Below are positions 24,401 to 48,706 of a stretch of 51,403 bases of DNA, piece by piece. The stretch is from a virus. Numbering within the stretch: the stretch's first letter is position 1; every line of letters starts with the position of its first letter. The stretch lies in the IMG/VR virus record IMGVR_UViG_3300027971_000065, positions 1 to 51,403 of that record; one strand, 5' to 3'. A program made the position numbers and the translations under genes. The notes under the pieces were generated by a model. The model searched no databases and was not told the origin of the DNA. It worked only from the letters and a program-made list of their open reading frames with translations.

Positions 24401-24798
24401 ATTCTGTTATTTTAAACAGTGTTATTTTTCAACCCTTGTTTGGACCAAAAGCACCAGCACAGTTAAGGGCAACTATTAAAGTAATTAAAACTTCTAATAC
24501 TAATGCTAGTGACAGTGAAATTCGTAGCGCAGTGTTAACCACAATGAATAATTATTTTAATATAAATAATTGGAATTTCGGCGATACTTTCTATTTTTCA
24601 GAGTTAAGTGCCTACTTACATTCTGAAATAGGTGCCCTTATTAGTTCAGCCGTCTTAGTTCCTAATGACCCTACGTTGACATTTGGAAATTTGTATGAGA
24701 TAAAATGTGCCCCTTATCAAATTTTTGTCAACGCAGCAACATCAAATGATGTACTAGTAATACCAGCCCTGACGCAAGTCCAATTACAGGCAAGATAA
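21427..24798 (+). CDS. 6: Baseplate wedge protein gp6 (enlarged)
   Basis: The N-terminus is clearly gp6: DFRSYDYETLRKSFVDYLRT, SSEFIALLDVMAFMGQGLAF, then LNTRENFIDTAERRDSVVKL and SYTPKR. The C-terminus also matches the baseplate J/gp6 type (ATIKVIKTSN, LTTMNNYFNINNWNFGDTFYFSELSAYLH in part, and SSAVLVPNDP). T4 gp6 has 660 residues and this has 1123. The added material lies in the middle, about 430-900, and is strand-rich with Asn/Thr/Tyr, as if domains were inserted between the wedge dimerisation regions. gp6 forms the inner iris-like ring of the baseplate and reorganises on contraction. The gap to the next gene is five bases. Confidence 0.92.
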   Translation: MATSSRQSALFGVNDWKSIYQTFREADFRSYDYETLRKSFVDYLRTYYPETFNDYIESSEFIALLDVMAFMGQGLAFRNDLNTRENFIDTAERRDSVVKLANLVSYTPKRNLAAQGFLKITSINTTENITDLNGVNLGNLTILWNDPANPNWLEQYNTIVNSTLINTQKVGRPGNTADLLGITTSEYAINIPQGTLPIAPFSSTVNGLTMNFELVSVTSLDEDYLYEIPPAPTGRFNMLYRNDKLGYGSPNTGYFFYFKQGILQNYDFTLQQQISNQVVNIDIQGVNNTDTWLYQISAANGGLSPWVKVENVYANAYLQTASSEKRIFSVGSGFNDVVNYNFGDGIFSAIPVGNFRAYVRSSNGLTYTIDPSEMQGITVAFSYLSRLNRIETLTIGLQLPTPVSNAQSRETLPQIKLRAPTRYYTQNRMVNGEDYNNFPYTLYSSIIKSKAINRSSIGVSKNLDLLDPTGKYSSLNSFASDGGLYLDDADGNLILTVNDTSNIITFLTDTLASELLLNKTTQYYLQNYTRYNVNTSTGDGTVYWQTSTVDANSLTGYYYNIINGTNAPIPVGSFSGYNVKYITPGALVKFVAPSGYYFDSNNRLVSGIAGPSNATYFWTSVLNVIGDGFNQGDGSFSNGTGPVALNGYVPTGAILTQVIPAFSNTFSNEIIQECIIRIELQQSFSLVFNNGLTIVEDRWSIADYNDPSYFINFLSLGNNRYSVSYKSLIYYFGSVYDTRFSFERDKLVYDPFTGKILQDFINVLATNTQPNSNYPLASNVQVNIVGQTVLADGYIDDYEVQVSATDVNNRLIITDPDFFNTVTGYVTGAQNFGIYAFFELVQDPINLARYQLITTTDVVYQYPTMNSIEVIKYDYPLGQIFYAYTDNLFYTTVQSTTVTTPYYTLVAQPQYSMKPGRQGLQFQYRHNSNNTTRIDPATTNIIDLYVVTQAYYTAYTNYIVDTTNTIPEPDRPTINELSQAYGQVNDYKMISDSVILNSVIFQPLFGPKAPAQLRATIKVIKTSNTNASDSEIRSAVLTTMNNYFNINNWNFGDTFYFSELSAYLHSEIGALISSAVLVPNDPTLTFGNLYEIKCAPYQIFVNAATSNDVLVIPALTQVQLQAR

Positions 24799-24803: not shown

Positions 24804-27800
24804 ATGGCCACAAAAATAAGAACTTTAGATTTTCTCCCAGAGATATTTCAAACTCCGACTAACGCTCAATTCTTAGCAGCAACATTAGACCAACTAGTTG
24901 CACAACCTTCTGTTGAAAGAATTCAGGGATATATTGGTACTAGAGTTGGATATGGAATTAATGCTAAAGATTATTATGTAACTGAACCAACAAAAGTTAG
25001 AACAGATTACCAACTTGATCCAGGTGTTGTGTTTAGAAAAACCGATCAAGATGTTGCACAAGATTTCATAAGCTATCCTGGAATATTAGATGCTCTTAAA
25101 TTAGAAGGTGGGATAACAAATAATAATAACCGACTTTTTAATAGCGAATTTTATTCTTGGGATTCATTTACTAATTTAGATACAAATGTTAACTTTCATC
25201 AGTATTACTGGTTGCCTGAAGGTCTTCCTCCAGTAGTAGTAACATCTGCTATTGCATATTCGTCAGAACAATATTATGTGATCGACGGCGCAAACTCTTA
25301 TGAAATTGCTACAGAACCTGCAGGAACTTCATTAGGAAACCCAACTTTAACTTTATTACGCGGCGGTACTTATACCTTTACTGTAGATCAACCAACTCAG
25401 TTTTGGATTCAGGGTCAACCGGGTATTACAGGTTATAGTATTACTCAACCAAATGTACAAACCAGAGATGTATTAGGAGTTGTTAACAACGGTGCTACTA
25501 CAGGTGTTGTGACTTTTACTGTGCCTGCTAAAAATGCACAAGACGAATATAATTTACCAGGTAATAATACTGTTAGTGTAGTAAGTATACTTCCTTTCTC
25601 TCAAGTAAATGGAAGTTATCTAAACACTCTAAATGATATTGATGGAGTAACTTCACTAAATGGATTAACTGTTATGTTTTACAATACAGGTGATCCAAAT
25701 GAAATGGCTTATGGTCAACTAGTAAGCGCACAATTTTTCACAATTACTTATATTGGATCTACTTCTAATCCACAATTACAACTTACGCCTGCTACCAGTA
25801 TTCCAACTAATCAAAAGATTACCGCGCAATATGGTACTGATTATTCAGGTAGACAGTTTTTTAGAAATACAGCAACGATTATTACATTAATACCTTACTT
25901 AAGTGCTGAGTTAGACACGCTTTATTATCAAGATGGTACTTCAAGCGATAAAGTAGGGATGATTAGACTTATTGACAGTAATACGACTGATACCATTAAT
26001 GTTGTGACTGAAATATTAGGTAAAACTACATATACTTCTTCCAATGGTGTTACGTTTACCAATGGATTAAAAGTACAATTTCAAGGTAATATCGTCCCTG
26101 AAGCATACACAGTTGAAGATTTTTATGTTGAAGGTGTAGGTACAGCAATAGAACTTATTCCTGTATCAAGTCTTATAGTTCCTGAATCATTTTCAACATC
26201 GGTCTATTTGCCATATGACTCTACCCCATGGGACATAGGTGGTTGGTCAGGTATACCTTATATACCCACAGATCCTGATTATATTACTATAGCTAGAAAT
26301 GCATTAAGCAAAAATGCTTGGTCTAGAAGCAATAGATGGTTTCATATTGATGTTATTAGAGCGACTGCTGAATACAACAATGATCCTACAATATTATTAT
26401 ATGCTTCTCAATATAATAAAGCTAAAAGACCTATCATTGAATTTTATCCAAACTTAAGATTATTTGATTCAGGTACTGAAGGCAAAGCTCCTCTCAATTT
26501 TATAGATTTTCGCACTACCGATCCTTTGCTATTAGTATCGGGCGAAGAGAATTATTACCCTGATGTTCAGGTATATACAGACTATACCGCTACAATTGCT
26601 ACAACTACATATACAAGTTCACGCACTGCCACATCTACTAATGGCACGACTGACGAAATTACATGCAGCAGTACTTCAGGATTTAGAGTTAACGATTTAG
26701 TAAGATTTACTATTAGCTCAGGAGCAGTGTTTGGTAATATTGTTGCGGGTGAATATTACTATGTTTCAGAAGTAGTTAGCAGTACTAAATTTACAATTTC
26801 AGAAACTAAAGGTGGAGGTGTATTTGACCTTTCTACTGGCACTGGAACAATGCAGTTTTATTGGACTCCACAAAGCACTGTAATAACTATCGATGGTGCT
26901 GACGTAACAGGTACTTTCAAAGTAGGTCAGTACATAACAGATTCAACAAATTTATTACCACCTGAAACACAAATATCTTCTGTTTCAGGGACAACTACTT
27001 TGACTTTAGAAGTAGTATGGGATACTATCTCATATAGTTTTTTTACAGGAACTACTACCGCATCTTTAATAGCTGTTCCCGATCCAGTTAATAACTATTC
27101 ATTATTCAATGGGGCTAGAGTAGTATTTGCAGCAGCAACTGATCCTGCTGTTAGAACAAAAATATATATTGCTAGATATTCTGTTATATCAGGGACAACA
27201 CCTGTTCTTACATTAAGCGAAGCACCAAATGGTGAGATTCTAGTCGGTGATCAAGCTGTTGTGATTAATGGTTACAATTATGCAGGAAAAAGTGTTTGGT
27301 ATGATGGTTTAGAATGGCTTCAAGCGCAACAAAAAAATACAGTAAATCAGCCACCTTTGTTTGATGTATTTGACGAAAATGGTATTAGCTTTGGTGATAA
27401 AGCAGTATATGTTGGAAGCTCGTTTATTGGTAGTAAATTATTTGCATATGGCATTGGAACAGGAACAAAAGATCAAGTTTTAGGTTTTCCAATTAGATAT
27501 AGCACAGTGGCTAATATCGGCGATATTAGTTTTGACGTATCTATTAATACCGATACTTTTGATTATGTAAGCAATTTTCAACCTATAACTCAAAATGTCA
27601 ATACTGGTTATGTTTATAACTATGAAACTAGAAGTCTTTATAATAGAGAATTAGGTTGGCAAACCGCTGTATCACCCAGTATTCAATATCAAGTATTTGA
27701 ATTTGATTATAATATAACAGATCCGCAAGTATTTTTTACATGTGATGTTGCAGTAAATAATACTTCTGCTACTAATTGGCCTGTTATCAAAGTTTTAATA

Positions 27801-30800
27801 AACAATGTACTATTGCCTAGCACCGATTATGAATATACTGTAAATAATAATTCTACAGTAGTTCATATATTAGTTGATATTCTAGTTGACACTGTTGTAC
27901 AAATATTATTGTTTAGTAATCAAGTAAGTACCACCGCATATTATAGCATTCCTATTAATTTAAGTAATAATCCACTTAATGCTAACTTGGAAATTGCTAA
28001 TGTAGGTGATATTAAAAATCAATATCAAACTATATTTTATAATAATCCAAACACAACCGGTCAAGTATTTGGATCAAACAATTACAGAGATTTGGGTAAT
28101 TTAGTTCCATGGGGCGACAGAATAATACAAAATAGTGCATCATTAGTATTACCTGGTGCATTCTTAAGAAAACCAAATCAAAATATATTCAATGCGTTAA
28201 TGTTTAATAGCAGAGAATATATTAAATTTAAAACTCTGTTAGTAGACACTGTTAATAATACAGACTATACACAAAGATTTAATCCATCTACTATATTAGA
28301 TGATGCATTAACTCAGATTAATCAAGTTAAGATTCAATCTCAGCCATTCTTTTGGAGTGACATGATTCCATCAAAGTCACCCTATATTATTAATAGTTAT
28401 ACATATACTACACCATCTATCGCCCCGACTTACCCATTAAGTCAAGTTTATAACTTCTCTACTGCTAATTATTCAGGTGTATTAGTTTATCTTTCTACTA
28501 CTATATCTAACGTAACTATAACCAAACAATTGGTTACTAATCAAGATTATATTATTAGTACCACTACCCCTTCACTAACAATTATATCTTCTTTACAAAA
28601 TGGTGCTGTAATTACAATTAAAGAATACAATCAAACATATGGTAGTTATATTCCAAATACTCCTACTAAATTGGGATTATATCCTGCATTTATTCCCGAA
28701 GTTGTATTAGATTCAGATTATGCTCAGCCCACATATTTTATTAAGGGCCATGATGGTTCATATAACAAGCTATATGGTACCTACAATACTAATTTAGGGG
28801 TATTAGTAGACTTCAGAGACCAAGCTTTACTTGAATTTGAACTTAGAGTTTACAACAACTTGAAATTAAGCACTAGTGTTCCTATATCGCAATACGACAT
28901 TATACCTGGATTTTTTAGAGAAACTGCATTTACTAATGGTGAAATTTTAGAAATCTATAGTAAAATGTTTTTGAATTGGGTCGGGCAAAATAGAATTGAT
29001 TATAAGAAGCAGTTATACAACAAAAACGATCAATTTACATTTAACTATTATCAAAGTGGAAACAAGATAAATCAAGAACCTATCTATCAGGGTTATTGGC
29101 GTGGTGTGTATCAGTGGTATTATGATACTACTACACCTAATTTAACTCCATGGCAGATGTTAGGATTCCAAGAGCAACCAAGTTGGTGGGAAACTAGATA
29201 TGGTCCAGCACCCTATACCAGTAATAACTTGATTCTTTGGAATGATTTAGCAGCGGGTATTGATTGGAATGATGGTAATCCAGTAGTATTAGAACAATTT
29301 GTAAGACCTCAATTATTACAAGTAATACCTGTTAATAGTGCAGGTGAGTTGTTATCTCCGTTTGACGCAATTGTTGGTAACTATACCGCTTCTACATTTC
29401 AACATGATTGGAAAGTTGGAGATGAGGGTCCTGCTGAATTAAGTTATCGCAGAAGCAGTTCTTGGCCCTTTGATTTAATGAGAATATATGCTCTAACCGA
29501 GCCTACACAATTCTTTAATTTATGTGCTGACCTAGACAATTATAAATTCAACACAGAGTTTAATCAATACTTAGTTAATAATCGTAGCCACTTAGTACCT
29601 GCAAACATTCAAGTTTATGGTACTGGTACGCCCAAAACAAGTTACATGAACTGGGTAGTTGATTATGAAAAACAATTAGGGGTAGATGCTACTCAAAATA
29701 TTATTGACTTATTAAACAATTTAGATGTTAGATTAGTTTATAGAGTAGCAGGGTTTACTGATAAGAATTTAATTAATTTTTATATAGAAAAAGCTACTCC
29801 TAATAGTACCAATGCTTCACTATTAATTCCTGATGCAAGTTATCAAGTTCTATTATATGATAATCAACCTTTTGATAGAATCATTTATAGTTCTGTTATT
29901 GTTCAGATAACAAGTGAAGGATATTTAGTATTTGGTAATTCTCAAACACAAGCATATTTTACTACTCTTAAACCAAAATTCACAGGAATAAATGAAGTAG
30001 TTAATGTAGAAACTCTAACGGTTAAACTTGCTACTGATTATTATGATGAAGAAGTAATAGTACCGTATGGCACATTATTCTATACTGTACAAGAAGTTGC
30101 TCAGTTTTTAACTAGTTATGGCGCATATTTACGTGCCCATGGTATGGTATTTGATGAGATTCAATCTGGTATAGAAGTTAGTTGGAATCAAATGGTATCT
30201 GAATTCCTTTATTGGGTTCAGTTAGGTTGGGAAAATGGTAGCTTAGAAACTATTAATCCAGCAGCTGGATATTTAAAAATTAATAGAGATGGATATATAG
30301 TACAACCTCTTACTATACGTCAAGAAAATTTCATTTTAAATCAGAATTTATATCCTATTCAAGCTACCGATTTAAATGTTCTTAGAGATGGTACTTTGTT
30401 CCTCGCTAGACCAGTTAATAATGGCGATTCACTAGCATATGGACAATTTAATATTGGTAATCTAGAGGACGGTATTGTCTTTAATAATGTTACTTTATTT
30501 GATGATGTTATATATGACTTAGTAACTGGTTCTAGACAACTTAGAATTTATGTTAGAGGTAGTAAAACCGCTGCTTGGGACGGTACTCTTACTGCATCAG
30601 GTTTTATTCTTAACCAAGACAATATATTGCAGTGGAACAAAGATATAACTTACACTAAAGGTTCTATTGTACTTTACAAGAATAAGTATTGGGTAGCATT
30701 AAGAATAGTTCAACCAAGTGCTACCTTCAATGAACAGAATTGGAGAAAGACTGAATATGATCAAATTCAAAAAGGATTATTGCCAAATTCTAGTACTAGA

Positions 30801-33800
30801 TCCTATGAAAGCACCCTATATTATGATAGCAACAAAGCTAATATAGAAGAAGATGCTGATTTATTAAGCTTTTCTTTAATTGGTTATCGTCCAAGAGATT
30901 ATCTAACAACAGTAGATTTAACTGAAATTACACAGATTAATGTCTATAAAAATTTAATTAAAAACAAAGGTACTCTAAACGCAGCTAGTGCATTTAAAGG
31001 TGCAACTCTACCACAGGGCGGAATAGATTATGACATTTATGAAAATTGGGCTATTAAAGCAGGCGAGTTTGGTGGAGTATTAAACACTAATTTTGTAGAA
31101 TTTAAGATTAGTGAAAGCTTAATGACTGGTAATCCAAGTATTGTTGCTCTTACTAACGGTGCCCCAACTGTAGGTGCCGAACAAGAAATTCCGTTATACT
31201 CGCTATTTAATTATGGTCGTTCAATCAATGATCCTGATATCCTAGCGGTTACTCCTATCAACCAACCATCTACTTTATATCCTGATGCAGGATATGTAAA
31301 TTATAATGACGTTAGAATGTCATCTTATTTTTATGCTAATTTACCAACTGCTGTAAATCAAAATGGTACGGTAATTCCTTTATCTGACTTCTATGTAAGA
31401 GAATATGTTTGGCTAGCAAGTTATTTAGGTACTTGGCAAGTGTATACTCCTGCATCAATTGGACCAATAACTCAAGCTTTAAATAATTTAAATGGTACGG
31501 TTACGATTACTTTTGCTAATCAACATAATTTATCACAATACAATATCTTTGCAATTATTAATCTTAATGCTGCTATTAATGGTTACTATATTGCAACTCA
31601 GATTGTTGATCCATTTAGAGTAATAATCAATCTAAATCTAGATCCTAACATCAGACTTGCTACAGGTTTGGGTGTGGGATTAAGTTTTCAAACTCAACGT
31701 GTTGCTACTCCTGCGGATATTAATAACTTAAACTTATTGAATGCAGAGTTCATTAAGAATACAGTATGGGTAGATACATATTCAACTGGTGATTGGGCAG
31801 TCTTAAGAAAGAGTATTAACTATCAATATGAACAAGAATTTAATAAATTAAATAGTTCAACTTATGGTAGTGCAGTTGCAACCGGTACAAAATTAGGTTA
31901 TTTAGTAGGAGATAGTGGAGTAGGAGAAGTATATAGATATACTTACAATGAAGTTTTACAAACTTATCAATTAGTACAGACTATTACTGGCAATAGATCA
32001 TTTGGTACTACTATTAGTCACGCGGGTGATTTATATGTAATATCAGAGCCAACTACTAATTATAGCTTTTCGGTAGATCCAACTTATTGGGCTTGGGATA
32101 TATCGGCAGAAGGTGGAACACATAGCTTTACAGTAACACCAAGTACTTGGACTTGGAATACATCAGTGGCAAGTGGACCAATTACTACGCCTACTTTAAC
32201 ACCTACTTTAACCTCTACTTTAACCTCTACTTTAACATCTACAACAAATTCTACGCCTGCAGTTTACCTATACATACTAGAAAATAATGTATTATCGGAT
32301 GACTTAATATTATATCAAAATCCAATTACCGGTCCGGCTAATACAACAAGTTGGGGAGCTGCTACTGCGATATCAGGTGATAAGAATTGGCTTTATATTT
32401 CCGACTATGACAATAATTCTGTATATGTTTACAGAAGAAACAATTTTTCAACACCAGCCGGATTCTTTATAGTAGGGAAAACTTATACTATTACTGACTT
32501 AGGCACTACAGATTTTACCCTAGTAGGTGCTACTAATAACATTGTAGGGTTATCTTTTATAGCAACTGGAGTTGGATCAGGTACTGGTTCAGCAACAAAT
32601 ACAACATATAGATATATAACAGTTATTGACGGTAACGAATTATCGTTGACTACTGTAGGAGATAACTTTGGTTATTCAATCTCTACCGATTATTATGGTC
32701 AAACAGTAACAATTGGCGCACCAAATCAAACAGTAAATTCAATTACCAATGCAGGCGCCGCTTATCTTTTTAGTAGGTCTGTTCAAAACGTAGAAGTGCA
32801 AGTAAATACCACTCCAGGTTTACCTCAAGTATTTAGATTGGGCTGGAACCACGTAACTGCTAGAACTGCTGTTTTTCAAACATCTAGTTCCAACAATACT
32901 ATTACATGCGCTGCTAGCACTAGGAGATTTAATGTTAATGATCCTGTTATATTCTACGGTACAGTTTACCCTAATAGTAATATATCATTTAACCAAATTT
33001 ACTATATTCATAGCATAGTAAATGATACTACATTTAGGATTAAAGTTAGCAAAGAACAACTTAATCCGTATCAATTGACTAATTCAAATGGTAATGGAAT
33101 GATTGCTAGTGTGCAAACTGTTCCTATTTACGTTTCCTTAAATGGGACTATAGTTGCTGATAATCAATATGGTATTGCAGGAAGCTCATTATATTATGTA
33201 GGTACATTAACAGCAGGTGACATTATTAATATTAGTGGAAATAAGTTTACTTACTTCCAACAATTAACCAATCCAAATAATTATACAATTGGTTCACAAT
33301 TTGGATTAGCCAGTGCTAATAATTTACAATCAACTGAAATTTTAGTAAGTGCTCCGTTTCAGATTAATAATCAAGTAGAAGAAGGTGGTATATTTAGATA
33401 TACCAATGGTGGTACTAGTTATGGTCAAATATTTGGTACGGCAATTTGCAATGTTACTGCAACTATTCCTATTTTATTAAATGGTTATTTGGTCCTAATA
33501 CCTGAAGGTAATGCTACGGTAGCAGCTAATGCAATTAATTCTAATAAAGTTACTAACATAACTGCTACTACTTCAGGTAGTAATAATGAATATTTGGTTA
33601 TCTCTCTAATTAATCAAGACTTGGCAATACCCAATGCAAGTCTTAGTCTTACTGTCTTTGATATTAATACTCTAACTGAATTAGGAATAACAGTTTATAC
33701 AAAAACACAAACTGTTAGTTGTCCGCATTTAGGTGAACGTAATCAGTTTGGTACTACTATCAAATTTAATGAGCAAAATTCTTTTGTAGCCAGTGCTCCG

Positions 33801-36800
33801 GTTGGTTCACGCTATAGCAGTACTACTTTTGATTTTACAGATGATGAAAACTTTACTAACGACACTGTATTTGATAATAATGCAACTCAGTGGGTAGATA
33901 TATTTGTCAATGCCGGTGCAGTATATATGTTTGACTACTTGTCAGTATATAATGAAAATATTAATAATACTGGCGACTATGTGCTTGCACAAAATGCCAA
34001 TGCTAGAAATATTGATTATGGTAAGCAACCATATTATGGAACGGCACTTGATTTTAATAATTATTCAGTAATAGTGGGAGCCCCTCTGTTCAGACCTGAT
34101 TATGTAAATGGACAAGTTGTCACTTTCTTAAATACGAGTGGAGAAAAAGATTGGTCTCTTTATAGAAGCTCCTCACCAATAGTTGACATAAATCGTATAC
34201 AAAATTCTCAATTGTTTAGCGCACTTACCAACGAAACGCTAATAAATTTAGACTACATTGATCCTCTTCAAGGTAAATTGCTTGGTGCTGTAAGTGAAAA
34301 TATAGATTATGTTTCTAACGTTGATCCGGCTAATTACAATAATCAAAACAATTTGAAATGGGGAGTTACCAACGTTGGGCAGTTATGGTTTGATACCAGC
34401 AATGTTAGATTTGTAAATTATCATCAAAATGATTTAGTTTATAATAGTCAATATTGGGGCACTGTGTTCCCTGGAAGTGACGTTGCAGTATATTCTTGGA
34501 TTTCAAGCATTGATTTACCTATAAATTACCAAGGACCAGGTACACCATATGATGTTACTTTATATTGTACTCAGTTTGATTTAAATGCCAATAATGTTCT
34601 AGCACCTGTGTATTTTTACTGGGTTAGAAACACAAATATAATATTCACTAAATTAGGTAATACACTATCAGATTCAATTATTGAAACGTATATTAGATCT
34701 CCTAAAAATTCAGGGATTAGTTATTTTGCACCTCTGTTACCAAACACATTTGGCTTATATAATTCCGGTGATTATATTAACGTTAATGACTCGGTATTTC
34801 ATATTGGATATTCAACTGGTACGAATGATGATGTTGGTCATACATCATATGATCTAATTAGAGCAGACTATGCTGATGACTTTTTATCTGGATTACCTCG
34901 ATATGGCGCTAACGTAGAGCCTCAATACTTATACAGAAGATTCTTAGCTAGTATGTCAGGTGTAGATGATTCAGGACAAGTTGTACCTGATCCATTCTTA
35001 CCAATAGCAGTTCGTTCAGGTGTTCAAGTAAGACCTAGGCAAAGCTTCTTCTTATTCAGATTATTAGCTGTAAAAAATTATTTGACTTATGCTAATGAAA
35101 TTTTAGCTCAGTTCCCTATTATAGAACTTAGCCCGCAAGCAACATTCTTGTATAAATCAGGTCCCTTCTACAATACAGCAGATTATTGGGAATATGTAAA
35201 TTGGTGGGCGACTGGATATGATAATAATACTAAAGCATCAGTTCAAGTGCCTTTGTATTCTGATTTATCTACCCTTTCTGTAGCATTTGGTACAATTGCT
35301 GAAGTAACTACAAATGGTAATGGTAATTCTGAAACTTACATTTATACGGTAGATGGCGTTTGGGTTAGAATTGGTTTGACTAATGGTACAATTGCATTTA
35401 AGTCATCTCTATGGGATTATGCAGGAGCTAATACTGGATTTGGTGGCAATTATTTTGATACAACTCCATATGATCAGTATCCGTCAACAGAAACTTATTA
35501 TATTCTTAGAGCATTAAACGAACAGATTTATATTGATGATTTTGCAATTTACAGAAACAAGAGTTTGATTCTTATATTTGAATACATTGTTGCGGAAACT
35601 TCCGAAACACAAAACTATCTACCTTGGCTTAATAAAACTTCATTGGTTGACGTAACTCATACTCTCAGAGAATTAAAGCCATATGAAGTGTTTAGTTCAG
35701 ATAATCAAGATTTCTTGTATGGTTATTTAAACGAAGTTAAGCCCTATCATGTAGTGTTTAAAGAATTCTTGTTCAAGTACACTAAGACAGAACCATACTT
35801 AATGAATGTCACTGACTTTGACTTACCTGCTCAATATGTTGCTAGTGACGCTCAATTTATTTCTCCTGAATTGGTTTATAGTAATCCAAGTAGTGATAGT
35901 CAATTCTTACCTGAGAATCCAATTTGGAATCAACAGGAATATACTCAGTGGTATCAGAATTATGGATTATCTATTACTGGTCATCCTGATTTCAATATCG
36001 CTACGTTGGAATCTTATATTTCAATTAATACAACTGAAATTGCAGTATCTAACATTAATGGATTCCCTGTAGCAGGTACAGTTAAAATAGGTACTGAGTT
36101 AATTTCTTATGAAACTGTAAATCGTGAAACATACACCTTAGGTGGATTGTCAAGAGGACTAAATGGTACTCCTATTAATAATCATTTACCTGGAGAATTA
36201 ATTTATACTGACTTACCACCGGTTCTAGTAGTTTATGGATCACATAGTTACACAGAACCACCTAGAGTCACTGCATATATTGATACTTCAATTTACCCAG
36301 CTCCTCGTGTACCTGCTGTATTTGCAGCGGTGATGAACGTAGACTCGGTGCTAGAAATTGAAGTAATCAATCCTGGCTCAGGGTATGCTGTACTACCAAC
36401 AATCGTAGTTGATCCCGCCGAAACATATACTTTTGGTAGTGGTTCAGTTAATGTTATCTTAAACACTATTACATTCGAGGCTCCAAACTTAGTTACTGGT
36501 GATCAAGTACAATATGAAGTTGGCGTAGCTACAACTGCAATTGGACCTTTAGTAGACGGGGAATGGTATTATGTGAATGTATTATCCAGTACACCAGTAA
36601 CTACTATTGCACTGTATACAAGCTATGATGATGCCATCAATGACAACTTTAGAATTAATTTTAATTCTACAGGTACTGGTTCTAGCCAATCTCTCAATTT
36701 AGGTGCTAGAGCATTTGCAATTACAAATTCAACACCTGTAAGAGAAAATATCATTACTATGCGTTTTGATAGAACTTCTTATGAACCTCAAGTAGTTGAG

Positions 36801-39800
36801 TGGTTGCCTGAGCAGTTCTATGGTGCTAGCTATGCTGGAAATTACAATCAGATTTCTAGTTCGGCTATTCAACTAGAAAGTACCAGTCCTCCAATAGGTT
36901 CAGTTCTTGCCAGTGGACAAGGAATTGGATTAGAAATAGACCAAGTTGAAAATCAAGTTATATATTCTTGGTCAGGATTCCCTCGTAGAGTAACAAACAC
37001 CTATTCAGGTTCTAACACTATTAGGCTTAATCCTTACGACGGCGGTGTTGGTGAACCTACAGCATCAGGTTCTACAATAGGTTTTTACGTAGGTATGCCA
37101 ATTAAAATTGATGGAGCATCAATTGGTGGCATTATTACTGATGTAACGTATTATGTCCAAAGCATTGTTAGTGACGTATTGTTTACTATTTCACAAACAG
37201 AATCAGGTTCGGTGTACCCGTTAACTACAGCAACCGCTGCTGCTGATACTGTTACACTCTACACTGCTCAGGTTATCAATCAAGCTATACTAACTGTTAA
37301 CTATCCAGGCATACTTGAAGTAACTTCTATTGAAGATTCAAATATTATAACAGTTCCTCTTAATCCTACTGGAACAGGCGGAACCAATGGTTTTTATGTT
37401 AATATGCCTATATTCTTTACTGGTGATGTATTTGGAAACATCATTGCCAATGAAGTATATTATGTCCATACAATTTGTAGCTCACAGACATTTACAATCT
37501 CTACACAAACAGATCCAGTTGTATATACCCTGGCTAATACTGTTGCAACAGGCAATCTAGTAACACTAACAAATCAAACTATGGATTTGGCTGTAAATGA
37601 TACTATAATCTTTACTAACTTTGTGTTTACTAGCGGGAACTTCATTGTTGGACAAACTTATACTATCGTTAGTCTTGGCACTACTGACTATACTTTAATT
37701 GGCGCCCCATTCAATGCAATAGGTATTACGTTTACTGCAACTGGAGTTGGTACTGGCACTGGTACAGCATCATCTACTGTGTTTGGTAACATTGTATCTG
37801 GTCAACTTTACTACGTGGCTGGTGTATCAGGAGCTAATAGCTTTAGTGTAAAAGAACAAATAAATTCATCAGTATTCACATTAATTAATTCTCAAGGTAC
37901 AGGCTTAGTTACTGCTCAGGCTGATGCGGTTGACTTGGCCGTTAGTACTGGTACAATGACTGTTAATTGTAACTTGCCAATAAGTCCGGGTCAGATAACT
38001 GGTCAACAGTTTTCAATGTATACAACGTCAGGTCAGTATCCAAATATAAGTGGATCTGTCAGTAATTTAATTACCAGAACATTACCTGCTACCCTTGCTG
38101 GTTCAAACAGAATACCAATGACATATACTAGTGGTGGAGCAACAAATATCTATGTAAATATGCCATTAAAATTTGCAAGAGCAATTGGTGGTTTAAGTGC
38201 AGGGCCTACAGTATATTACGTAAAAGAGGTTGGTACAACTACTTTCCCTGTAACAAATACTAACGCACCAAGCACTGTTGGCGTTGTAACAGGTTCCATA
38301 GCTGGTTATGTATTGACAGTAACCTCAGTAACCTCAGGACTAATAGTAAATGGGGCAACTATTACAGGAACAGGGGTCGTAGCAGGTACTACTATTATTT
38401 CACAACTATCAGGGTTACCTAATAGCACAGGAACTTATCAAGTAAGTTCTTCTCAAACAGTATCATCAACCTCAATCACCGCAACTATAAGTTACTTGAC
38501 TATTCCAAGCACATACTCAACTAATGTGTTGTATCCAGGCATGCCTGTTGTATTTGACGCATTAAGCATAGGTGGCGTAGATTTGAATACAGAGTATTTT
38601 GTATTGTCAATTATAAGTGCAACTCGATTTTCTATATCGCTTGCACCAGGTGGCGAGGCTGTTATTATGTCTACTGGTACAGGCAATTATATGCGTTGTA
38701 CCGGCCAAGATTATATAACAGTAAGTGCTACACAGGGTGGATCAGTAATACCGTTGATTGGTTCAACCACATCATCTAACTCATTCACCTTCACTCAGTA
38801 TCCTATACTATCCCCCGTATTTGATGTAAGTTGGATATTAGGTGGCTATAATGTTGTCATAACCAATCCAGGATTAGGTTATGCAGTATCTAATACTATC
38901 ACAATCCCCGGTACTCTAATTGGTGGAACTACTAATAACAACTTAACGATAACGGTTAACAAGCTTCAAGAATATGCTCCTAATCAAAGTTATGGGGCCG
39001 TAGCTGATGTTATTACTGCAGGTGTAGTGCCAACTCAGGCTACTAAGTATTTCTTAAAAGCGGTTGCTCCAAATCAATTAGCAGTTTACAGTAATTCTCA
39101 ATTAACTGTTCCTGTTAGTGGTATAAATTTTCCATATTATGGTACAACACAAACAACAGTAACGGGCACAATAGGTACATCTGTCTTTTCTGTAGATCCA
39201 ACTACTTGGACTTGGAATGTATTAGCACAAGGTGGAACATATAGCTTTACCGCAGCGCCAAGTAGTTGGACTTGGAATATATCAGCACCAAGTGGATCTG
39301 GGAAAGCTATATTTGGATTTGGTGTGGCCGGCAGTATTACCAACGTAACCAATCTAGTAAATGAGGCTGGTGTTGTGGCTATTGATACACTCAGTGTTGG
39401 TACTGCAAGATATGGACTAGCAGCAGCAGGATATGGCGGTGATAAAGCTATATTTGGATTTGGGTTGACTAGCTCTGCTGTTTCAATAACCAATCTAGTA
39501 TCTAACACCGGTGTTGTTGCTGCTGATCAAACTGCATTAACTGGTACTCCTAGATATTATCTAGCAGCAGCAGGATACGGGACTGATAAAGCTATATTTG
39601 GATTTGGTGCAACAGATATTGCTGCAATATCAATAACCAATCTAGTATCTAATACCGGTGTTGTTGCTGTTGACCAAACCGCATTAACTGGTACTGCAAG
39701 ACGAAATCTAGCAGCAGCAGGATACGGGACTGATAAAGCTATATTTGGATTTGGTTTTACTGGTACTATTGGCGGTGTGGTATCAACAACTAATCTAGTA

Positions 39801-42800
39801 AATAATCTTGGTGTTGTTGCTGCTGATCAAACCGCATTAACTGGTACTGCACGAGTTGGACTAGCAGCAGCAGGATATGGCGGTGATAAAGCTATATTTG
39901 GATTTGGGTTGACTAGCACTGCTGTTTCAATAACCAATCTAGTATCTAATACCGGTGTTGTTGCTACAGATACCATCGGAGTAGGTACTCCTAGATATTA
40001 TCTAGCAGCAGCAGGATATGGCGGTGATAAAGCTATATTTGGATTTGGCCAAGACGGTAGTCCTATTAACATAACCAATCTAGTATCTAATACCGGTGTT
40101 GTTGCTGCTGATCAAACTGCATTAACTGGTACTGCAAGAGTTAATTTAGCAGCAGCAGGATATGGTGGTGTGATCACACCACCCACAACGACTACAACAA
40201 CTGCGGCACCAACTACTACGACGACAACAGCAGCACCAAATCCAAGTAATATTATAGTTGTAACAAGTACTACTGGATTTAACTTAAACGATCCAGTAGT
40301 ATTTACAGGTAATGTAGGTGGAGGATTAATATTAGGTAAAGTATACTATATACTTACAGTAACACCTAATTTGACAGTAAGCTTAAAACCGGGTGATCCT
40401 TCAACTATAGTAACAGTATCAACAGCCCCATTTCTGAATTTTACAATGGCTAAGCTAGGTGATTTTGCGTTCTTGCCCGAGCCAATACCATTCAATCAAA
40501 GCATAGTTAAATTTAATAATCAAGTTTACGCTTGTGTAGTGAGTAATAATGATGCTGAATTTGTTTTAGGTAAGTGGGCATTACTTAATTCAGATGACCG
40601 TAGGTTAAATGCACTAGACAGAATCATAGGCTATTATGCTCCTACTGTTAATATGCCAGGAGCAATAACTAAGTTAGGGCAAACCTTATCATATGATATA
40701 ATCACATATGATAGCTATCCGTATAATGAATTTATGTCATTGAATATAGATTTGTCACAATTATTAACTGGGACAACTTATCCAAATAGCACTTACTTAG
40801 GTAATAATTTTAATCCTGATTTAGATTTTGTATTAGATACTGAATTAAGCAGCCCTTCATTTACTAGTACTGAATCAACAGTGTATGACGTAGAAGGAAC
40901 TCCGTTTACATATGGATATGCTCCTGAAGAATTAGTAGCAGGACTAGTCACAGATAATTTAACATTTGTGGCTTCAACTAGGCCAGGCGTAGATTGGCCT
41001 GTTACTGAATATCAAAATAATGGATTTAATGTATTAAGCGTAGAAATACCGCAAAGTTCTCCTACACAAACTGTATATAGTTTTGCTAATTTAGTTCAAG
41101 TTCCAGCCCAACTTAAAGTATTTGCAATAAACCCTACTACAATGGTAAGTGTATCTAAATATGTTGTTCAAGATTATACGGTTAATTGGGTTAATAGCAC
41201 CGTTACATTAAACAGTCCTCTATCATCAGGTAATATACTAAGAATTGATATATATGAAACTGGCAATGGATATCAATTAGATAGGTCTAACACTGTCTTT
41301 ACACCGTTACGTGACAATGACGTAACAGGGTTACAAGAAATATATTTAGATTCTAAATACGCAGGTACTATTAACGATGGTAATGGTCTAGTAGTTCCAT
41401 ACACCCAATCTCAAATGGTAGAAGTGATTGCTACCGAAAGTGATGTAAATCTTATATATTGTGCAGATGTTGCTCAATTTATTCTGAATAATCCTATCAT
41501 GTTCCAAGGGAATGTATTCGGTAATATACAAGCAAATACGACTTACTATGTAAAAACTATTAATTTAGCCACACTATCTATAACTGTTTCTTTATATTAT
41601 GATATAATTAATGGTGTTGCAGGGCCAGAATTTGTAGTATCAACTGCAACTGGATCAATGGAAGCAGTAATAAACGTGGGCTCTGATGAGCTTTATACTC
41701 CACCTTTAGTAATGGTAAATGGAAATGAACTAACGTTAGGAGCATATGGTCAAGTTACTCAACTTAATGGCGACCCCATATTAGCAGGTAACTTTATTGT
41801 TGGTAAAACTTATATTATTGTATCGGTTGGTACTACTAACTTTGTTGCATCAGGTGCTGCTTCTAATCTAGTTGGTATACCTTTCGTAGCAACTAATGCA
41901 GGGTCAGGTACTGGGACTGTAGCTAAGTATACTATAACTTGCAACAATACTGGTACATTAAATATTAATGATACTATATTATTTTCTAATGAAATATTTG
42001 GTTCAGTGATTCAACCATTGACAACATATTATGTTAAAACAATTTGGGATGCTAATGAGTTTACAATTGCCGCAACTCTCGGTGGAGCAGCTATTGTGTT
42101 AACTTCTGCTACTGGGTTAGCAACATTTGTTACTAATGAATATACAGTTGGTAGAGTTGATGATAGTAATCTAGCTAAACTAGTATTTGCTAACCAATAT
42201 GATACTGCTACAGATTATATTTCGTACACTGTGTTAGGAGAAACAGCTCCAACTCAGTATGGATACAGTATACCTGAAACTCAGTTGCTAACAGGAACTG
42301 GTTCTGCTTCTACTTTTAGTTTAACTAATTATGTTGGTGAAGATAATGTTACTAATGCAATTGTAGAAATCAATGGAATAAGACAGACTAGTAGTTCATA
42401 TACTATTAATCCTAGCACCAATCAGATTATATTTACTTCTTCTCCTACAGGAGGAAGTACAATTGCAGTTACCACATACAACTTAACAGATAATCAGTAT
42501 TTGCATACCCAATATGGTATTACAAACACTTCTACCAATGTAGTAACTGCTATTTCAAATATTAATAGAAATATTACTAATAGTATCTTTACTACTTCAA
42601 GTGCTACCCAAGCAGGGACTAATTATATAACGTGTTTATCTACTACAGGGTTTGCAATAGGTGCTACAGTTTTCTTTACAGGAACCGGTAGTTATGGTAA
42701 TCTTAGCGTATCAGGTGTCGTTTATTTTGTTGACGCTATAATAAGCCCAACTCAATTTACAATTAAAGATCAATTTGGGACAATTATATCATTAACTACT

Positions 42801-43586
42801 GCAAGTAGTTTCTCATTAGGTACCTACGTAGGTGGTCAACCAGCGGTGCGTGTTACAACCAGTACCAATCACGGATTTGCTAACAATAATATTATTAGAA
42901 TTGCCGATACTTTAGGTAGCGTTGGCCTTAATAATGAATTATTCTATGCAAGAGTTATTAGTAACACGGTATTTGATTTATATACTAACCCGTATAATTT
43001 TTCAGTAGGCGCAACTAATTATCCAGTAACTGCAACTCAGGCGTATATCAGTGGAGGTTATACTTGGATTAATGGAACATTTATTTTAACTACTACCCTA
43101 GCTAGTGCAACATCTGCCTCAACTAATATTATCACTGTAGCATCTACAAGTGATTTGATTGTAGATACTCCGGTATTATTCAGACAAGCAGGAATACCAA
43201 TTGGGGATATTTCTAATGGTGGTATGGTAATTGGCGCTATATACTATGTAAAACAAATTGTAAGTCCAACTGAATTTACTGTATCTGCTTCGTTAGGTGG
43301 TGATGTATTTGGGTTGACTACTAGCGCAGTTACAATTAATGTAACTGAATTCCAACAAATTGACGTTGACAGACTTTGGGTAACAGTAGATGGATATAGA
43401 ATAGCATCTTCAGCTTTATATTTGAATCCAGGAAATGAACTAAGTATTCTTACTACAGTTGCAGCAAATCAAGAAGTGATAATTACTAATATGATACCGA
43501 ATTCTACTCCTAATAAATTGAAGTATTTGTTAAATGTAAATCAGGTAAATTACGGATCTGTTTATAGAGGCACTACACAATCATGA
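24804..43586 (+). CDS. Giant gp7-type baseplate/adhesion protein, 6260 residues
   Basis: The first 130 residues (TLDFLPEIFQTPTNAQFLAA, VERIQGYIGTRVGYG, YQLDPGVVFRK, RLFNSEFYSWDSF, NFHQYYWLPEGLP) are the start of large wedge/structural proteins that follow gp6 in marine T4-like phages, where T4 has gp7 (1032 residues). Along the chain come a cupredoxin-like segment (about 155-260), a Trp/Tyr-rich conserved region (about 1290-1500), and an FG-GAP-like propeller region (about 2350-3110: FGTTISHAGDLY, FGYSISTDYYG, FGLASANN, FGTTIKFNEQN). Many modules of the kind VFGNIVAGEYYYV...FTIS occur, along with three IVGKTYT cassettes, two Trp cassettes and six Kelch-like repeats (4833-5120). It ends like the C-terminus of the same family (VDRLWVTVDGYRI, LSILTTVAANQEVIITNM). 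No transmembrane segment or protease is evident. It overlaps the next gene by ATGA. Confidence 0.75.
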   Translation: MATKIRTLDFLPEIFQTPTNAQFLAATLDQLVAQPSVERIQGYIGTRVGYGINAKDYYVTEPTKVRTDYQLDPGVVFRKTDQDVAQDFISYPGILDALKLEGGITNNNNRLFNSEFYSWDSFTNLDTNVNFHQYYWLPEGLPPVVVTSAIAYSSEQYYVIDGANSYEIATEPAGTSLGNPTLTLLRGGTYTFTVDQPTQFWIQGQPGITGYSITQPNVQTRDVLGVVNNGATTGVVTFTVPAKNAQDEYNLPGNNTVSVVSILPFSQVNGSYLNTLNDIDGVTSLNGLTVMFYNTGDPNEMAYGQLVSAQFFTITYIGSTSNPQLQLTPATSIPTNQKITAQYGTDYSGRQFFRNTATIITLIPYLSAELDTLYYQDGTSSDKVGMIRLIDSNTTDTINVVTEILGKTTYTSSNGVTFTNGLKVQFQGNIVPEAYTVEDFYVEGVGTAIELIPVSSLIVPESFSTSVYLPYDSTPWDIGGWSGIPYIPTDPDYITIARNALSKNAWSRSNRWFHIDVIRATAEYNNDPTILLYASQYNKAKRPIIEFYPNLRLFDSGTEGKAPLNFIDFRTTDPLLLVSGEENYYPDVQVYTDYTATIATTTYTSSRTATSTNGTTDEITCSSTSGFRVNDLVRFTISSGAVFGNIVAGEYYYVSEVVSSTKFTISETKGGGVFDLSTGTGTMQFYWTPQSTVITIDGADVTGTFKVGQYITDSTNLLPPETQISSVSGTTTLTLEVVWDTISYSFFTGTTTASLIAVPDPVNNYSLFNGARVVFAAATDPAVRTKIYIARYSVISGTTPVLTLSEAPNGEILVGDQAVVINGYNYAGKSVWYDGLEWLQAQQKNTVNQPPLFDVFDENGISFGDKAVYVGSSFIGSKLFAYGIGTGTKDQVLGFPIRYSTVANIGDISFDVSINTDTFDYVSNFQPITQNVNTGYVYNYETRSLYNRELGWQTAVSPSIQYQVFEFDYNITDPQVFFTCDVAVNNTSATNWPVIKVLINNVLLPSTDYEYTVNNNSTVVHILVDILVDTVVQILLFSNQVSTTAYYSIPINLSNNPLNANLEIANVGDIKNQYQTIFYNNPNTTGQVFGSNNYRDLGNLVPWGDRIIQNSASLVLPGAFLRKPNQNIFNALMFNSREYIKFKTLLVDTVNNTDYTQRFNPSTILDDALTQINQVKIQSQPFFWSDMIPSKSPYIINSYTYTTPSIAPTYPLSQVYNFSTANYSGVLVYLSTTISNVTITKQLVTNQDYIISTTTPSLTIISSLQNGAVITIKEYNQTYGSYIPNTPTKLGLYPAFIPEVVLDSDYAQPTYFIKGHDGSYNKLYGTYNTNLGVLVDFRDQALLEFELRVYNNLKLSTSVPISQYDIIPGFFRETAFTNGEILEIYSKMFLNWVGQNRIDYKKQLYNKNDQFTFNYYQSGNKINQEPIYQGYWRGVYQWYYDTTTPNLTPWQMLGFQEQPSWWETRYGPAPYTSNNLILWNDLAAGIDWNDGNPVVLEQFVRPQLLQVIPVNSAGELLSPFDAIVGNYTASTFQHDWKVGDEGPAELSYRRSSSWPFDLMRIYALTEPTQFFNLCADLDNYKFNTEFNQYLVNNRSHLVPANIQVYGTGTPKTSYMNWVVDYEKQLGVDATQNIIDLLNNLDVRLVYRVAGFTDKNLINFYIEKATPNSTNASLLIPDASYQVLLYDNQPFDRIIYSSVIVQITSEGYLVFGNSQTQAYFTTLKPKFTGINEVVNVETLTVKLATDYYDEEVIVPYGTLFYTVQEVAQFLTSYGAYLRAHGMVFDEIQSGIEVSWNQMVSEFLYWVQLGWENGSLETINPAAGYLKINRDGYIVQPLTIRQENFILNQNLYPIQATDLNVLRDGTLFLARPVNNGDSLAYGQFNIGNLEDGIVFNNVTLFDDVIYDLVTGSRQLRIYVRGSKTAAWDGTLTASGFILNQDNILQWNKDITYTKGSIVLYKNKYWVALRIVQPSATFNEQNWRKTEYDQIQKGLLPNSSTRSYESTLYYDSNKANIEEDADLLSFSLIGYRPRDYLTTVDLTEITQINVYKNLIKNKGTLNAASAFKGATLPQGGIDYDIYENWAIKAGEFGGVLNTNFVEFKISESLMTGNPSIVALTNGAPTVGAEQEIPLYSLFNYGRSINDPDILAVTPINQPSTLYPDAGYVNYNDVRMSSYFYANLPTAVNQNGTVIPLSDFYVREYVWLASYLGTWQVYTPASIGPITQALNNLNGTVTITFANQHNLSQYNIFAIINLNAAINGYYIATQIVDPFRVIINLNLDPNIRLATGLGVGLSFQTQRVATPADINNLNLLNAEFIKNTVWVDTYSTGDWAVLRKSINYQYEQEFNKLNSSTYGSAVATGTKLGYLVGDSGVGEVYRYTYNEVLQTYQLVQTITGNRSFGTTISHAGDLYVISEPTTNYSFSVDPTYWAWDISAEGGTHSFTVTPSTWTWNTSVASGPITTPTLTPTLTSTLTSTLTSTTNSTPAVYLYILENNVLSDDLILYQNPITGPANTTSWGAATAISGDKNWLYISDYDNNSVYVYRRNNFSTPAGFFIVGKTYTITDLGTTDFTLVGATNNIVGLSFIATGVGSGTGSATNTTYRYITVIDGNELSLTTVGDNFGYSISTDYYGQTVTIGAPNQTVNSITNAGAAYLFSRSVQNVEVQVNTTPGLPQVFRLGWNHVTARTAVFQTSSSNNTITCAASTRRFNVNDPVIFYGTVYPNSNISFNQIYYIHSIVNDTTFRIKVSKEQLNPYQLTNSNGNGMIASVQTVPIYVSLNGTIVADNQYGIAGSSLYYVGTLTAGDIINISGNKFTYFQQLTNPNNYTIGSQFGLASANNLQSTEILVSAPFQINNQVEEGGIFRYTNGGTSYGQIFGTAICNVTATIPILLNGYLVLIPEGNATVAANAINSNKVTNITATTSGSNNEYLVISLINQDLAIPNASLSLTVFDINTLTELGITVYTKTQTVSCPHLGERNQFGTTIKFNEQNSFVASAPVGSRYSSTTFDFTDDENFTNDTVFDNNATQWVDIFVNAGAVYMFDYLSVYNENINNTGDYVLAQNANARNIDYGKQPYYGTALDFNNYSVIVGAPLFRPDYVNGQVVTFLNTSGEKDWSLYRSSSPIVDINRIQNSQLFSALTNETLINLDYIDPLQGKLLGAVSENIDYVSNVDPANYNNQNNLKWGVTNVGQLWFDTSNVRFVNYHQNDLVYNSQYWGTVFPGSDVAVYSWISSIDLPINYQGPGTPYDVTLYCTQFDLNANNVLAPVYFYWVRNTNIIFTKLGNTLSDSIIETYIRSPKNSGISYFAPLLPNTFGLYNSGDYINVNDSVFHIGYSTGTNDDVGHTSYDLIRADYADDFLSGLPRYGANVEPQYLYRRFLASMSGVDDSGQVVPDPFLPIAVRSGVQVRPRQSFFLFRLLAVKNYLTYANEILAQFPIIELSPQATFLYKSGPFYNTADYWEYVNWWATGYDNNTKASVQVPLYSDLSTLSVAFGTIAEVTTNGNGNSETYIYTVDGVWVRIGLTNGTIAFKSSLWDYAGANTGFGGNYFDTTPYDQYPSTETYYILRALNEQIYIDDFAIYRNKSLILIFEYIVAETSETQNYLPWLNKTSLVDVTHTLRELKPYEVFSSDNQDFLYGYLNEVKPYHVVFKEFLFKYTKTEPYLMNVTDFDLPAQYVASDAQFISPELVYSNPSSDSQFLPENPIWNQQEYTQWYQNYGLSITGHPDFNIATLESYISINTTEIAVSNINGFPVAGTVKIGTELISYETVNRETYTLGGLSRGLNGTPINNHLPGELIYTDLPPVLVVYGSHSYTEPPRVTAYIDTSIYPAPRVPAVFAAVMNVDSVLEIEVINPGSGYAVLPTIVVDPAETYTFGSGSVNVILNTITFEAPNLVTGDQVQYEVGVATTAIGPLVDGEWYYVNVLSSTPVTTIALYTSYDDAINDNFRINFNSTGTGSSQSLNLGARAFAITNSTPVRENIITMRFDRTSYEPQVVEWLPEQFYGASYAGNYNQISSSAIQLESTSPPIGSVLASGQGIGLEIDQVENQVIYSWSGFPRRVTNTYSGSNTIRLNPYDGGVGEPTASGSTIGFYVGMPIKIDGASIGGIITDVTYYVQSIVSDVLFTISQTESGSVYPLTTATAAADTVTLYTAQVINQAILTVNYPGILEVTSIEDSNIITVPLNPTGTGGTNGFYVNMPIFFTGDVFGNIIANEVYYVHTICSSQTFTISTQTDPVVYTLANTVATGNLVTLTNQTMDLAVNDTIIFTNFVFTSGNFIVGQTYTIVSLGTTDYTLIGAPFNAIGITFTATGVGTGTGTASSTVFGNIVSGQLYYVAGVSGANSFSVKEQINSSVFTLINSQGTGLVTAQADAVDLAVSTGTMTVNCNLPISPGQITGQQFSMYTTSGQYPNISGSVSNLITRTLPATLAGSNRIPMTYTSGGATNIYVNMPLKFARAIGGLSAGPTVYYVKEVGTTTFPVTNTNAPSTVGVVTGSIAGYVLTVTSVTSGLIVNGATITGTGVVAGTTIISQLSGLPNSTGTYQVSSSQTVSSTSITATISYLTIPSTYSTNVLYPGMPVVFDALSIGGVDLNTEYFVLSIISATRFSISLAPGGEAVIMSTGTGNYMRCTGQDYITVSATQGGSVIPLIGSTTSSNSFTFTQYPILSPVFDVSWILGGYNVVITNPGLGYAVSNTITIPGTLIGGTTNNNLTITVNKLQEYAPNQSYGAVADVITAGVVPTQATKYFLKAVAPNQLAVYSNSQLTVPVSGINFPYYGTTQTTVTGTIGTSVFSVDPTTWTWNVLAQGGTYSFTAAPSSWTWNISAPSGSGKAIFGFGVAGSITNVTNLVNEAGVVAIDTLSVGTARYGLAAAGYGGDKAIFGFGLTSSAVSITNLVSNTGVVAADQTALTGTPRYYLAAAGYGTDKAIFGFGATDIAAISITNLVSNTGVVAVDQTALTGTARRNLAAAGYGTDKAIFGFGFTGTIGGVVSTTNLVNNLGVVAADQTALTGTARVGLAAAGYGGDKAIFGFGLTSTAVSITNLVSNTGVVATDTIGVGTPRYYLAAAGYGGDKAIFGFGQDGSPINITNLVSNTGVVAADQTALTGTARVNLAAAGYGGVITPPTTTTTTAAPTTTTTTAAPNPSNIIVVTSTTGFNLNDPVVFTGNVGGGLILGKVYYILTVTPNLTVSLKPGDPSTIVTVSTAPFLNFTMAKLGDFAFLPEPIPFNQSIVKFNNQVYACVVSNNDAEFVLGKWALLNSDDRRLNALDRIIGYYAPTVNMPGAITKLGQTLSYDIITYDSYPYNEFMSLNIDLSQLLTGTTYPNSTYLGNNFNPDLDFVLDTELSSPSFTSTESTVYDVEGTPFTYGYAPEELVAGLVTDNLTFVASTRPGVDWPVTEYQNNGFNVLSVEIPQSSPTQTVYSFANLVQVPAQLKVFAINPTTMVSVSKYVVQDYTVNWVNSTVTLNSPLSSGNILRIDIYETGNGYQLDRSNTVFTPLRDNDVTGLQEIYLDSKYAGTINDGNGLVVPYTQSQMVEVIATESDVNLIYCADVAQFILNNPIMFQGNVFGNIQANTTYYVKTINLATLSITVSLYYDIINGVAGPEFVVSTATGSMEAVINVGSDELYTPPLVMVNGNELTLGAYGQVTQLNGDPILAGNFIVGKTYIIVSVGTTNFVASGAASNLVGIPFVATNAGSGTGTVAKYTITCNNTGTLNINDTILFSNEIFGSVIQPLTTYYVKTIWDANEFTIAATLGGAAIVLTSATGLATFVTNEYTVGRVDDSNLAKLVFANQYDTATDYISYTVLGETAPTQYGYSIPETQLLTGTGSASTFSLTNYVGEDNVTNAIVEINGIRQTSSSYTINPSTNQIIFTSSPTGGSTIAVTTYNLTDNQYLHTQYGITNTSTNVVTAISNINRNITNSIFTTSSATQAGTNYITCLSTTGFAIGATVFFTGTGSYGNLSVSGVVYFVDAIISPTQFTIKDQFGTIISLTTASSFSLGTYVGGQPAVRVTTSTNHGFANNNIIRIADTLGSVGLNNELFYARVISNTVFDLYTNPYNFSVGATNYPVTATQAYISGGYTWINGTFILTTTLASATSASTNIITVASTSDLIVDTPVLFRQAGIPIGDISNGGMVIGAIYYVKQIVSPTEFTVSASLGGDVFGLTTSAVTINVTEFQQIDVDRLWVTVDGYRIASSALYLNPGNELSILTTVAANQEVIITNMIPNSTPNKLKYLLNVNQVNYGSVYRGTTQS
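32063..32181 (+). repeat. Trp-rich cassette copy 1 inside the giant gene
   Basis: Two tandem half-units encode PTYWAWDISAEGG and PSTWTWNTSVASG. A closely similar DNA segment lies at 39184-39300 in the same gene. Copy 1 interrupts an FG-GAP-like propeller region, which suggests insertion of a mobile domain-sized cassette. Confidence 0.7.
32188..32248 (+). repeat. 12-bp tandem repeat (TLTP/TLTS)
   Basis: About five copies of a unit like ACTTTAACCTCT encode TLTPTLTSTLTSTLTST, directly after the first Trp-rich cassette. The unit is in frame and likely to change length by slippage. Confidence 0.75.
32463..32600 (+). repeat. IVGKTYT-type cassette copy 1
   Basis: Encodes IVGKTYTITDLGTTDFTLVG, then a GLSFIATGVGSGTGSA end. 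Two further copies lie in the same gene at about 37635-37765 and 41786-41925. This roughly 45-residue module recurs in phage structural proteins. Confidence 0.7.
37635..37765 (+). repeat. IVGKTYT-type cassette copy 2
   Basis: Encodes FIVGQTYTIVSLGTTDYTLI, then GITFTATGVGTGTGTA. It is inserted between a TNQTMDLAVNDTIIFTN strand and the VFGNIVSGQLYYV strand of one VFGN-type module, so the cassette splits another repeat unit. Confidence 0.7.
39184..39300 (+). repeat. Trp-rich cassette copy 2 before the Kelch-like array
   Basis: Encodes PTTWTWNVLAQGGTYSF and PSSWTWNISAPSG. It leads straight into the Kelch-like array. A degenerate half-copy (VAPTSWVV) precedes the Thr-rich linker and Kelch array of the next gene, near 44244-44270. 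Confidence 0.7.
39301..40170 (+). repeat. Six-unit Kelch-like repeat array (giant gene)
   Basis: Six units begin with KAIFGFG at about 39301, 39441, 39585, 39732, 39885 and 40026, a period of 140-153 bases (47-51 residues). Each runs KAIFGFG, a variable loop, TNLVSNTGVVA, a GTAR motif, LAAAGYGG. Six such strand-rich units would suit a six-bladed propeller. DNA between units is nearly identical outside the loops. Confidence 0.85.
40177..40243 (+). repeat. Short Thr-rich TTTTTTAAP linker in the giant gene
   Basis: Two units of TTTTTTAAP follow the Kelch-like array in frame, the shortest example of the linker found in four later genes. It is followed by a return to VFTGNVGGGLILGKVYYI-type modules. 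Confidence 0.85.
41786..41925 (+). repeat. IVGKTYT-type cassette copy 3
   Basis: Encodes FIVGKTYIIVSVGTTNFVAS, then GIPFVATNAGSGTGTV. It is the third copy in the giant gene and again sits beside a VFGN-type module. Confidence 0.7.
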
Positions 43587-48685: not shown

Positions 48686-48706
48686 AGAATACCGGAGTAA
48701 TTGAAA

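Follow-up and report, generated by a model that had tools for sequence, protein, structure and literature searches.

A predicted 6,260-residue phrog_10938-family virion protein, interrupted by in-frame cassettes, encoded next to gp6 in an uncultured phage

Virion structural proteins of the family phrog_10938 (3,324 profile positions; PHROGs category 'head and packaging', a generic label) are encoded directly after gp6 in the cultured jumbo phages Phosso (294; 4,555 aa), Atu_ph07 (gp180; 4,449 aa), PA5oct (gp355; 3,857 aa), PHA46 (3,342 aa) and RaK2 (gp465/ORF070w; 3,326 aa), and the homologue of Salicola phage SCTP-2 has 3,807 aa. The PA5oct homologue is annotated as a virion protein detected by ESI-MS/MS. 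CBB_236 was detected in CBB virions (21 peptides) and was listed beside the gp6 gene CBB_237 (PMC5259590); judged by its gene position, it is likely a phrog_10938 homologue. In SCTP-2, a second giant gene of 9.3 kb (L008:10609-19899) lies directly upstream of the homologue, at the place expected for gp6.

Mosaicism of phage protein domains was described by Smug et al. 2023 (PMC10684548), and promiscuous Ig-like domains in phage structural proteins by Fraser et al. 2006 (cited in PMC10684548). A literature search on the largest phage protein or on in-frame domain insertion found nothing relevant. The cryo-EM paper on phiKp24, a phage of another proposed family, contains no baseplate model of the giant protein described here (PMC9700779).

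A giant gene directly 3' of gp6

The DNA analysed (IMG/VR record IMGVR_UViG_3300027971_000065, positions 1 to 51,403; 51,403 nucleotides, hereafter the window) contained a giant ORF of 6,260 aa, running from ATG to TGA (24804..43586). It was immediately preceded by a gp6-type baseplate wedge gene (21427..24798; phrog_10646, E 5.5e-251), with a gene for a small wedge subunit also upstream. The gp6-type gene, the giant ORF with all its parts and the ORF that overlaps its end are on the + strand. The gp6 of the window was 33-35% identical to those of jumbo phages Phosso, Munch, 121Q and GAP32, and IMG/VR records holding near relatives of the giant gene reached 303-335 kb. The source of the window, judged by these similarities, is therefore most likely an uncultured jumbo phage.

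An initial annotation of this DNA had described one uninterrupted gene of 18,783 bases, which was borne out. The five other frames of 24804-43586 had 383-757 stops apiece, so the openness of the giant frame is not due to chance. Residues 1-1200 matched 79 loci in viral contigs, each open across the fetched DNA, and in 40 whole IMG/VR records both gene ends lay within one open frame (5,798-6,890 codons, stop to stop). Ten relatives that could be read to the end encoded 6,057-6,886 aa, the longest exceeding the window protein.

Repeats within the protein were located by self-BLAST in 110-aa chunks. The presence of tandem arrays in a metagenome fragment could point to a frame created by mis-assembly or repeat collapse, but frame and repeats recurred in separate records. 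G003 was 99.9% identical to the window over 22.5 kb, including the complete array of DKAIFGFG repeats, and G001 was 100% identical over 15.2 kb, with part of the array. These two, though deposited separately, may rest partly on the same reads as the window. The longest exact repeats inside the giant gene were 60-69 bases, which makes short-read mis-assembly unlikely. With the 40 records that hold both ends in one frame, an artefact has a negligible probability and is refuted where the entire frame is concerned, the copy number of the DKAIFGFG array being less certain.

The phrog_10938 profile matched the protein over three pieces (E 8.8e-87, 2.6e-113 and 1.2e-34), the best matches covering residues 7-565, 1236-1942 and 3029-3357. 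By this profile match in the N-terminal and central core, and by the position of its gene directly 3' of gp6, the window protein is assigned to phrog_10938, whose cultured jumbo-phage members occupy the same place. A recognisable family N-terminus had been proposed and was found: residues 1-120 were among the most conserved.

The same map place is that of T4 gp7, with 1,032 aa as the initial annotation had stated, and the giant protein could be an expanded form of gp7, which lies at the periphery of the baseplate wedge, and could link wedges as gp7 does; its relatives being virion proteins is consistent with that. The gene order after gp6 is indeed shared, but no sequence or profile similarity was detected. 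With hhalign, T4 gp7 alone gave no signal, nor did an alignment of seven gp7s against three parts of the clade alignment (best probability 0.2%). Of 1,432 records of T4 gp7 relatives, 40 were listed, and no phage of the giant protein's group was among these. The gp6 control in this comparison did give a colinear signal, though a weak one, so that distance may hide gp7 homology. We consider gp7 identity doubtful.

Conserved core, propeller and split C-terminal domain

When the window protein was aligned with those of 32 relatives (33 clade members in all), a core of ~5,650 residues had an occupancy of ~1, and lineage-specific cassettes made up ~600 aa, or ~10% of the window protein. Low occupancy was seen at residues 601-690 (0.6), 2413-2486 (0-0.04), 2552-2600 (0.47), 4277-4325 (0.11), 4486-4563 (0.07), 4796-5145 (0.00), 5281-5310 (0.3) and 5661-5711 (0.29). 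The modules named in the initial annotation were found. There was an FG-GAP-like region, the Trp-rich segments numbered two, the IVGKTYT cassettes three and the Kelch-like DKAIFGFG units six. Nesting was found as well, an IVGQTYT cassette interrupting a beta-module. The added mass had been ascribed to such modules; they are present, but ~5,650 aa are conserved in the 32 relatives and the cassettes amount to only ~600 aa. By sequence comparison, the giant protein is a known family grown larger, with a size of 6-7 kaa throughout the uncultured clade.

Segment profiles and the clade alignment divided the protein into regions. Core I (residues 1-2250; 24804..31553) and core II (residues ~3000-3750; 33801..36053, segment profiles) were common to cultured jumbo phages. 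The propeller (2330-3000) and nearly all of 3750-6260 were not. The clade-specific C-terminal half (3751-6260; 36054..43583), a beta-module array with cassettes, resembled the homologues of cultured phages slightly or not at all. The window protein thus resembles the cultured members of phrog_10938 in its place after gp6 and in its two core regions, but is ~1,700-2,900 aa longer and differs from them in the predicted integrin-alpha-type propeller, the array of 68-aa beta-modules, the inserted cassettes and a C-terminal domain that is split off in the window lineage.

The clade-specific propeller with its inserts (residues ~2338-3122; 31815..34169) was predicted to be of the integrin-alpha/FG-GAP type. 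Its model (residues 2338-3122) was of good confidence (pLDDT 81, pTM 0.83). In PDB it was closest to headpieces of integrin alpha, with Z 36.8 over 351 residues at 3.3 A and 18% identity, in keeping with the FG-GAP propeller proposed earlier. In its overall fold, the model is thus of the integrin-alpha propeller type. In sequence, the Pfam FG-GAP_2 match to the window protein scored 18.7 bits, below the 23-bit cut-off, and a strict FG..GAP motif occurred once. Unlike integrin alpha/FG-GAP propellers, that of the window is embedded in a predicted phage virion protein and has cassettes in its loops. An IVGKTYT cassette was predicted to be ordered (pLDDT ~93) and a Trp-rich/TLTS insert disordered. 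The N-terminal model was poor (pLDDT 61, pTM 0.36); Foldseek with it gave no match below 1e-3, and a sequence search of PDB with residues 1-1165, allowing E values up to 1, found nothing.

A 68-aa beta-module (consensus TNTITVGSTTGFYVNDPIVFTGTVFGGIVAGTTYYVKSIVSSTTFTISETPGG...) gave 13 HMM matches, corresponding to 12 modules in the window protein, of which one is interrupted by a cassette. Other clade members had 7-16 matches, and none of the cultured homologues was matched. One module was inserted in core I (616-684; 26649..26855; clade occupancy ~0.6) and one lay inside the propeller region (2698-2767; 32895..33104). The others were in the C-terminal half, at residues 4087-4147 (37062..37244), 4187-4252 (37362..37559), 4256-4369 (37569..37910, interrupted by a 46-aa cassette), 4441-4499 (38124..38300), 4571-4629 (38514..38690), 5149-5208 (40248..40427), 5549-5621 (41448..41666), 5710-5775 (41931..42128), 5939-6002 (42618..42809) and 6107-6181 (43122..43346).

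A family C-terminus had also been claimed inside the giant ORF. Ten relatives read through ...VYRANTQTRTWLTQPL... and continued ~190 aa to ...GDPLQIS... (for one, the fetched DNA ended too early). In the window and in G003, the giant protein stopped at VYRGTTQS* and the next ORF started with MSQILVSPSTTWLTEPL.... This ORF (43583..45409; 608 aa) overlaps the giant ORF by ATGA, and its residues 1-205 were the family C-terminal domain that is fused to the giant protein in relatives (match to G022, E 3e-65). The claim was therefore wrong here, since the remaining domain starts the ORF 43583-45409. The split is a lineage variation, with phrog_10938 membership kept. A programmed frameshift joining the two ORFs was considered and rejected: no slippery heptamer was seen in the stretch that runs from the final stop in the second frame to the TGA, and a restart at ATGA is simpler.

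After the domain, the 608-aa ORF had TTTTTTAAP linkers together with a second DKAIFGFG array, a repeat type thus added to two neighbouring genes, the giant ORF and 43583-45409. Further downstream, two paralogous lineage-specific ORFs (45533-46582 and 46650-47855; MAA[EK]QFTLTNTGT...) with TTTTTTAAP arrays lay between the giant locus and a conserved 206-aa gene, and none was found at the equivalent place in complete relatives. A 409-aa ORF (48701-49930) matched the Pfam domain Peptidase_G2 (IMC autoproteolytic chaperone) with 25.4 bits, the cut-off being 25, and its product is likely a self-cleaving protein of the tail-fibre type. The record terminated within a 27-base TTTTTTEAP repeat array (50908-51403), which probably broke the assembly.

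Filled and empty insertion sites and a 46-residue cassette

Two inserts were delimited by comparison with close relatives. Insert 1 (32053..32253; 201 bp), a Trp-rich cassette with a TLTS linker, was missing from L010 (86.6% DNA identity), which had 9 bp instead and kept the frame. Insert 2 (39171..40242; 1,072 bp), a Trp-rich cassette followed by six DKAIFGFG units (array at 39398-40170) and a PTTTTTTAAP linker, was exactly missing from G002 (88.6% DNA identity), which had 7 bp there, again with the frame kept. G002 aligned across insert 1 without a large gap, so the two were probably gained at different times; near-zero occupancy of both in the other relatives is consistent with gain. The same Trp-rich cassette opened both inserts (83% identity over 112 bases). 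At these Trp-led inserts no target-site duplication was seen; instead, 7-9 bp were replaced.

The 39-aa Trp cassette had no match in phage records. DKAIFGFG arrays were common in IMG/VR (509 confirmed stretches), but a search of 50,697 phage records found none with E of 1e-3 or lower. A phrog_21413-like cassette (residues 4490-4561; 38271..38486; GSIAG..LTVTSVTSG..TGTGV..) had a clade occupancy of ~0.07; phrog_21413 also matched L188, a phrog_3287 virion protein, and this cassette is perhaps a second promiscuous insert.

The IVGKTYT cassettes were copies of a 46-aa unit, AGSFVVGxTYTIxxxGTTDFTxIGAxSNTVGxxFxATGxGxGTGTA. Copy 1 (2552-2597; 32457..32594; pLDDT ~93, occupancy 0.47) was in a propeller loop, copy 2 (4277-4322; 37632..37769; clade occupancy 0.11) was nested in a beta-module and copy 3 was at 5661-5705 (41784..41918; occupancy 0.29). 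Leaving aside the twin G003, the giant proteins of 28 of the 33 clade members were matched by the cassette, at many sites and with up to seven matches in one protein. An empty counterpart was found for 57 of the 62 copies examined, some of the alignments being weak. At residues ~5541-5690 of G034, three left halves were followed by three right halves, a three-level nesting of cassettes, and further nested copies were found in G032, L179 and L181.

Scanning viral contigs with the cassette gave at least 545 confirmed loci. Among 120 well-bounded copies (from the best 80 of these loci and from the clade), 76 flank contexts were distinguished. When host proteins were scanned, 14 of 20 matched a PHROG family, nearly all of them structural, including tail sheath, tail fibre J, tail spike and virion structural proteins. 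The cassette had no convincing counterpart in Pfam, PHROGs or PDB. It also occurred in 39 GTDB bacterial and archaeal contigs from many phyla, which are perhaps prophages or mis-binned phage contigs.

Between contexts, the mean protein identity of the cassette was 69%. Identity at four-fold degenerate sites (V, T, A, G) was 0.337, and 0.32-0.36 was expected from base composition; since agreement at these sites does not exceed this expectation, it is the protein that is conserved and not the DNA, and a mobile element acting at the DNA level was rejected. Like the promiscuous Ig-like domains, the cassette is a small domain found across unrelated virion proteins (tail sheath, fibre and spike). 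Unlike them, it is internal, with host sequence on both sides, sharp ends and self-nesting. We tentatively propose, at somewhat less than even confidence, that the cassette is an undescribed, self-nesting 'mobile domain' that repeatedly enters surface loops of the virion proteins of many phages in frame, that the giant protein offers it many landing sites and that cassettes and Trp-led blocks together represent a general route by which virion proteins grow. The main novelty lies in the behaviour of the cassette more than in the length of the protein.

Proposed role and significance

The reading we favour, with reasonable though incomplete confidence, is that the giant protein, a member of the phrog_10938 family of jumbo T4-related myophages, sits on the baseplate wedge beside gp6 and serves as a modular adhesin or scaffold. 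Gene order points to the baseplate location, and an adhesive role is suggested by analogy of fold and repeats, an integrin-type propeller fold being by itself no demonstration of adhesion.

Whisker-like appendages had been proposed as another role. Hair-like whiskers are known in CBB and Atu_ph07, jumbo phages of the wider group, and the C-terminal array of the giant protein is long and repetitive. The hairs of CBB (119 nm) are, however, along the tail shaft (PMC5259590) and those of Atu_ph07 mainly on the capsid (PMC6102473), and the giant gene sits among baseplate genes. The CBB authors, who did not assign a gene to the hairs, look to genes absent from GAP32, if GAP32 is truly hairless (PMC5259590). 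Formation of long whiskers by the giant protein is thus improbable.

For a modular adhesin or scaffold on the wedge, gene order and conservation suggest that the very conserved N-terminal part would fix the giant protein on the wedge close to gp6. To judge from fold and repeats, the arm made up of the propeller and the beta-modules would reach out and touch the host surface or join tail-fibre components. Exposed loops would tolerate cassettes, and the changed surface would diversify adhesion. The split-off 608-aa protein may be translated by a restart at the ATGA overlap and would probably re-enter the same assembly as the giant protein.

The filled and empty pairs of 86-89% identity allow in-frame insertion of cassettes into a predicted virion gene to be read base by base. 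With small cassettes inserted in frame, even within one another, phage protein mosaicism becomes directly visible. If the 46-aa cassette moves as a unit, the gain of internal domains by phage structural proteins would be directly testable. Predicted virion proteins of 6-7 kaa are stably maintained throughout an uncultured clade and not a curiosity of one contig.
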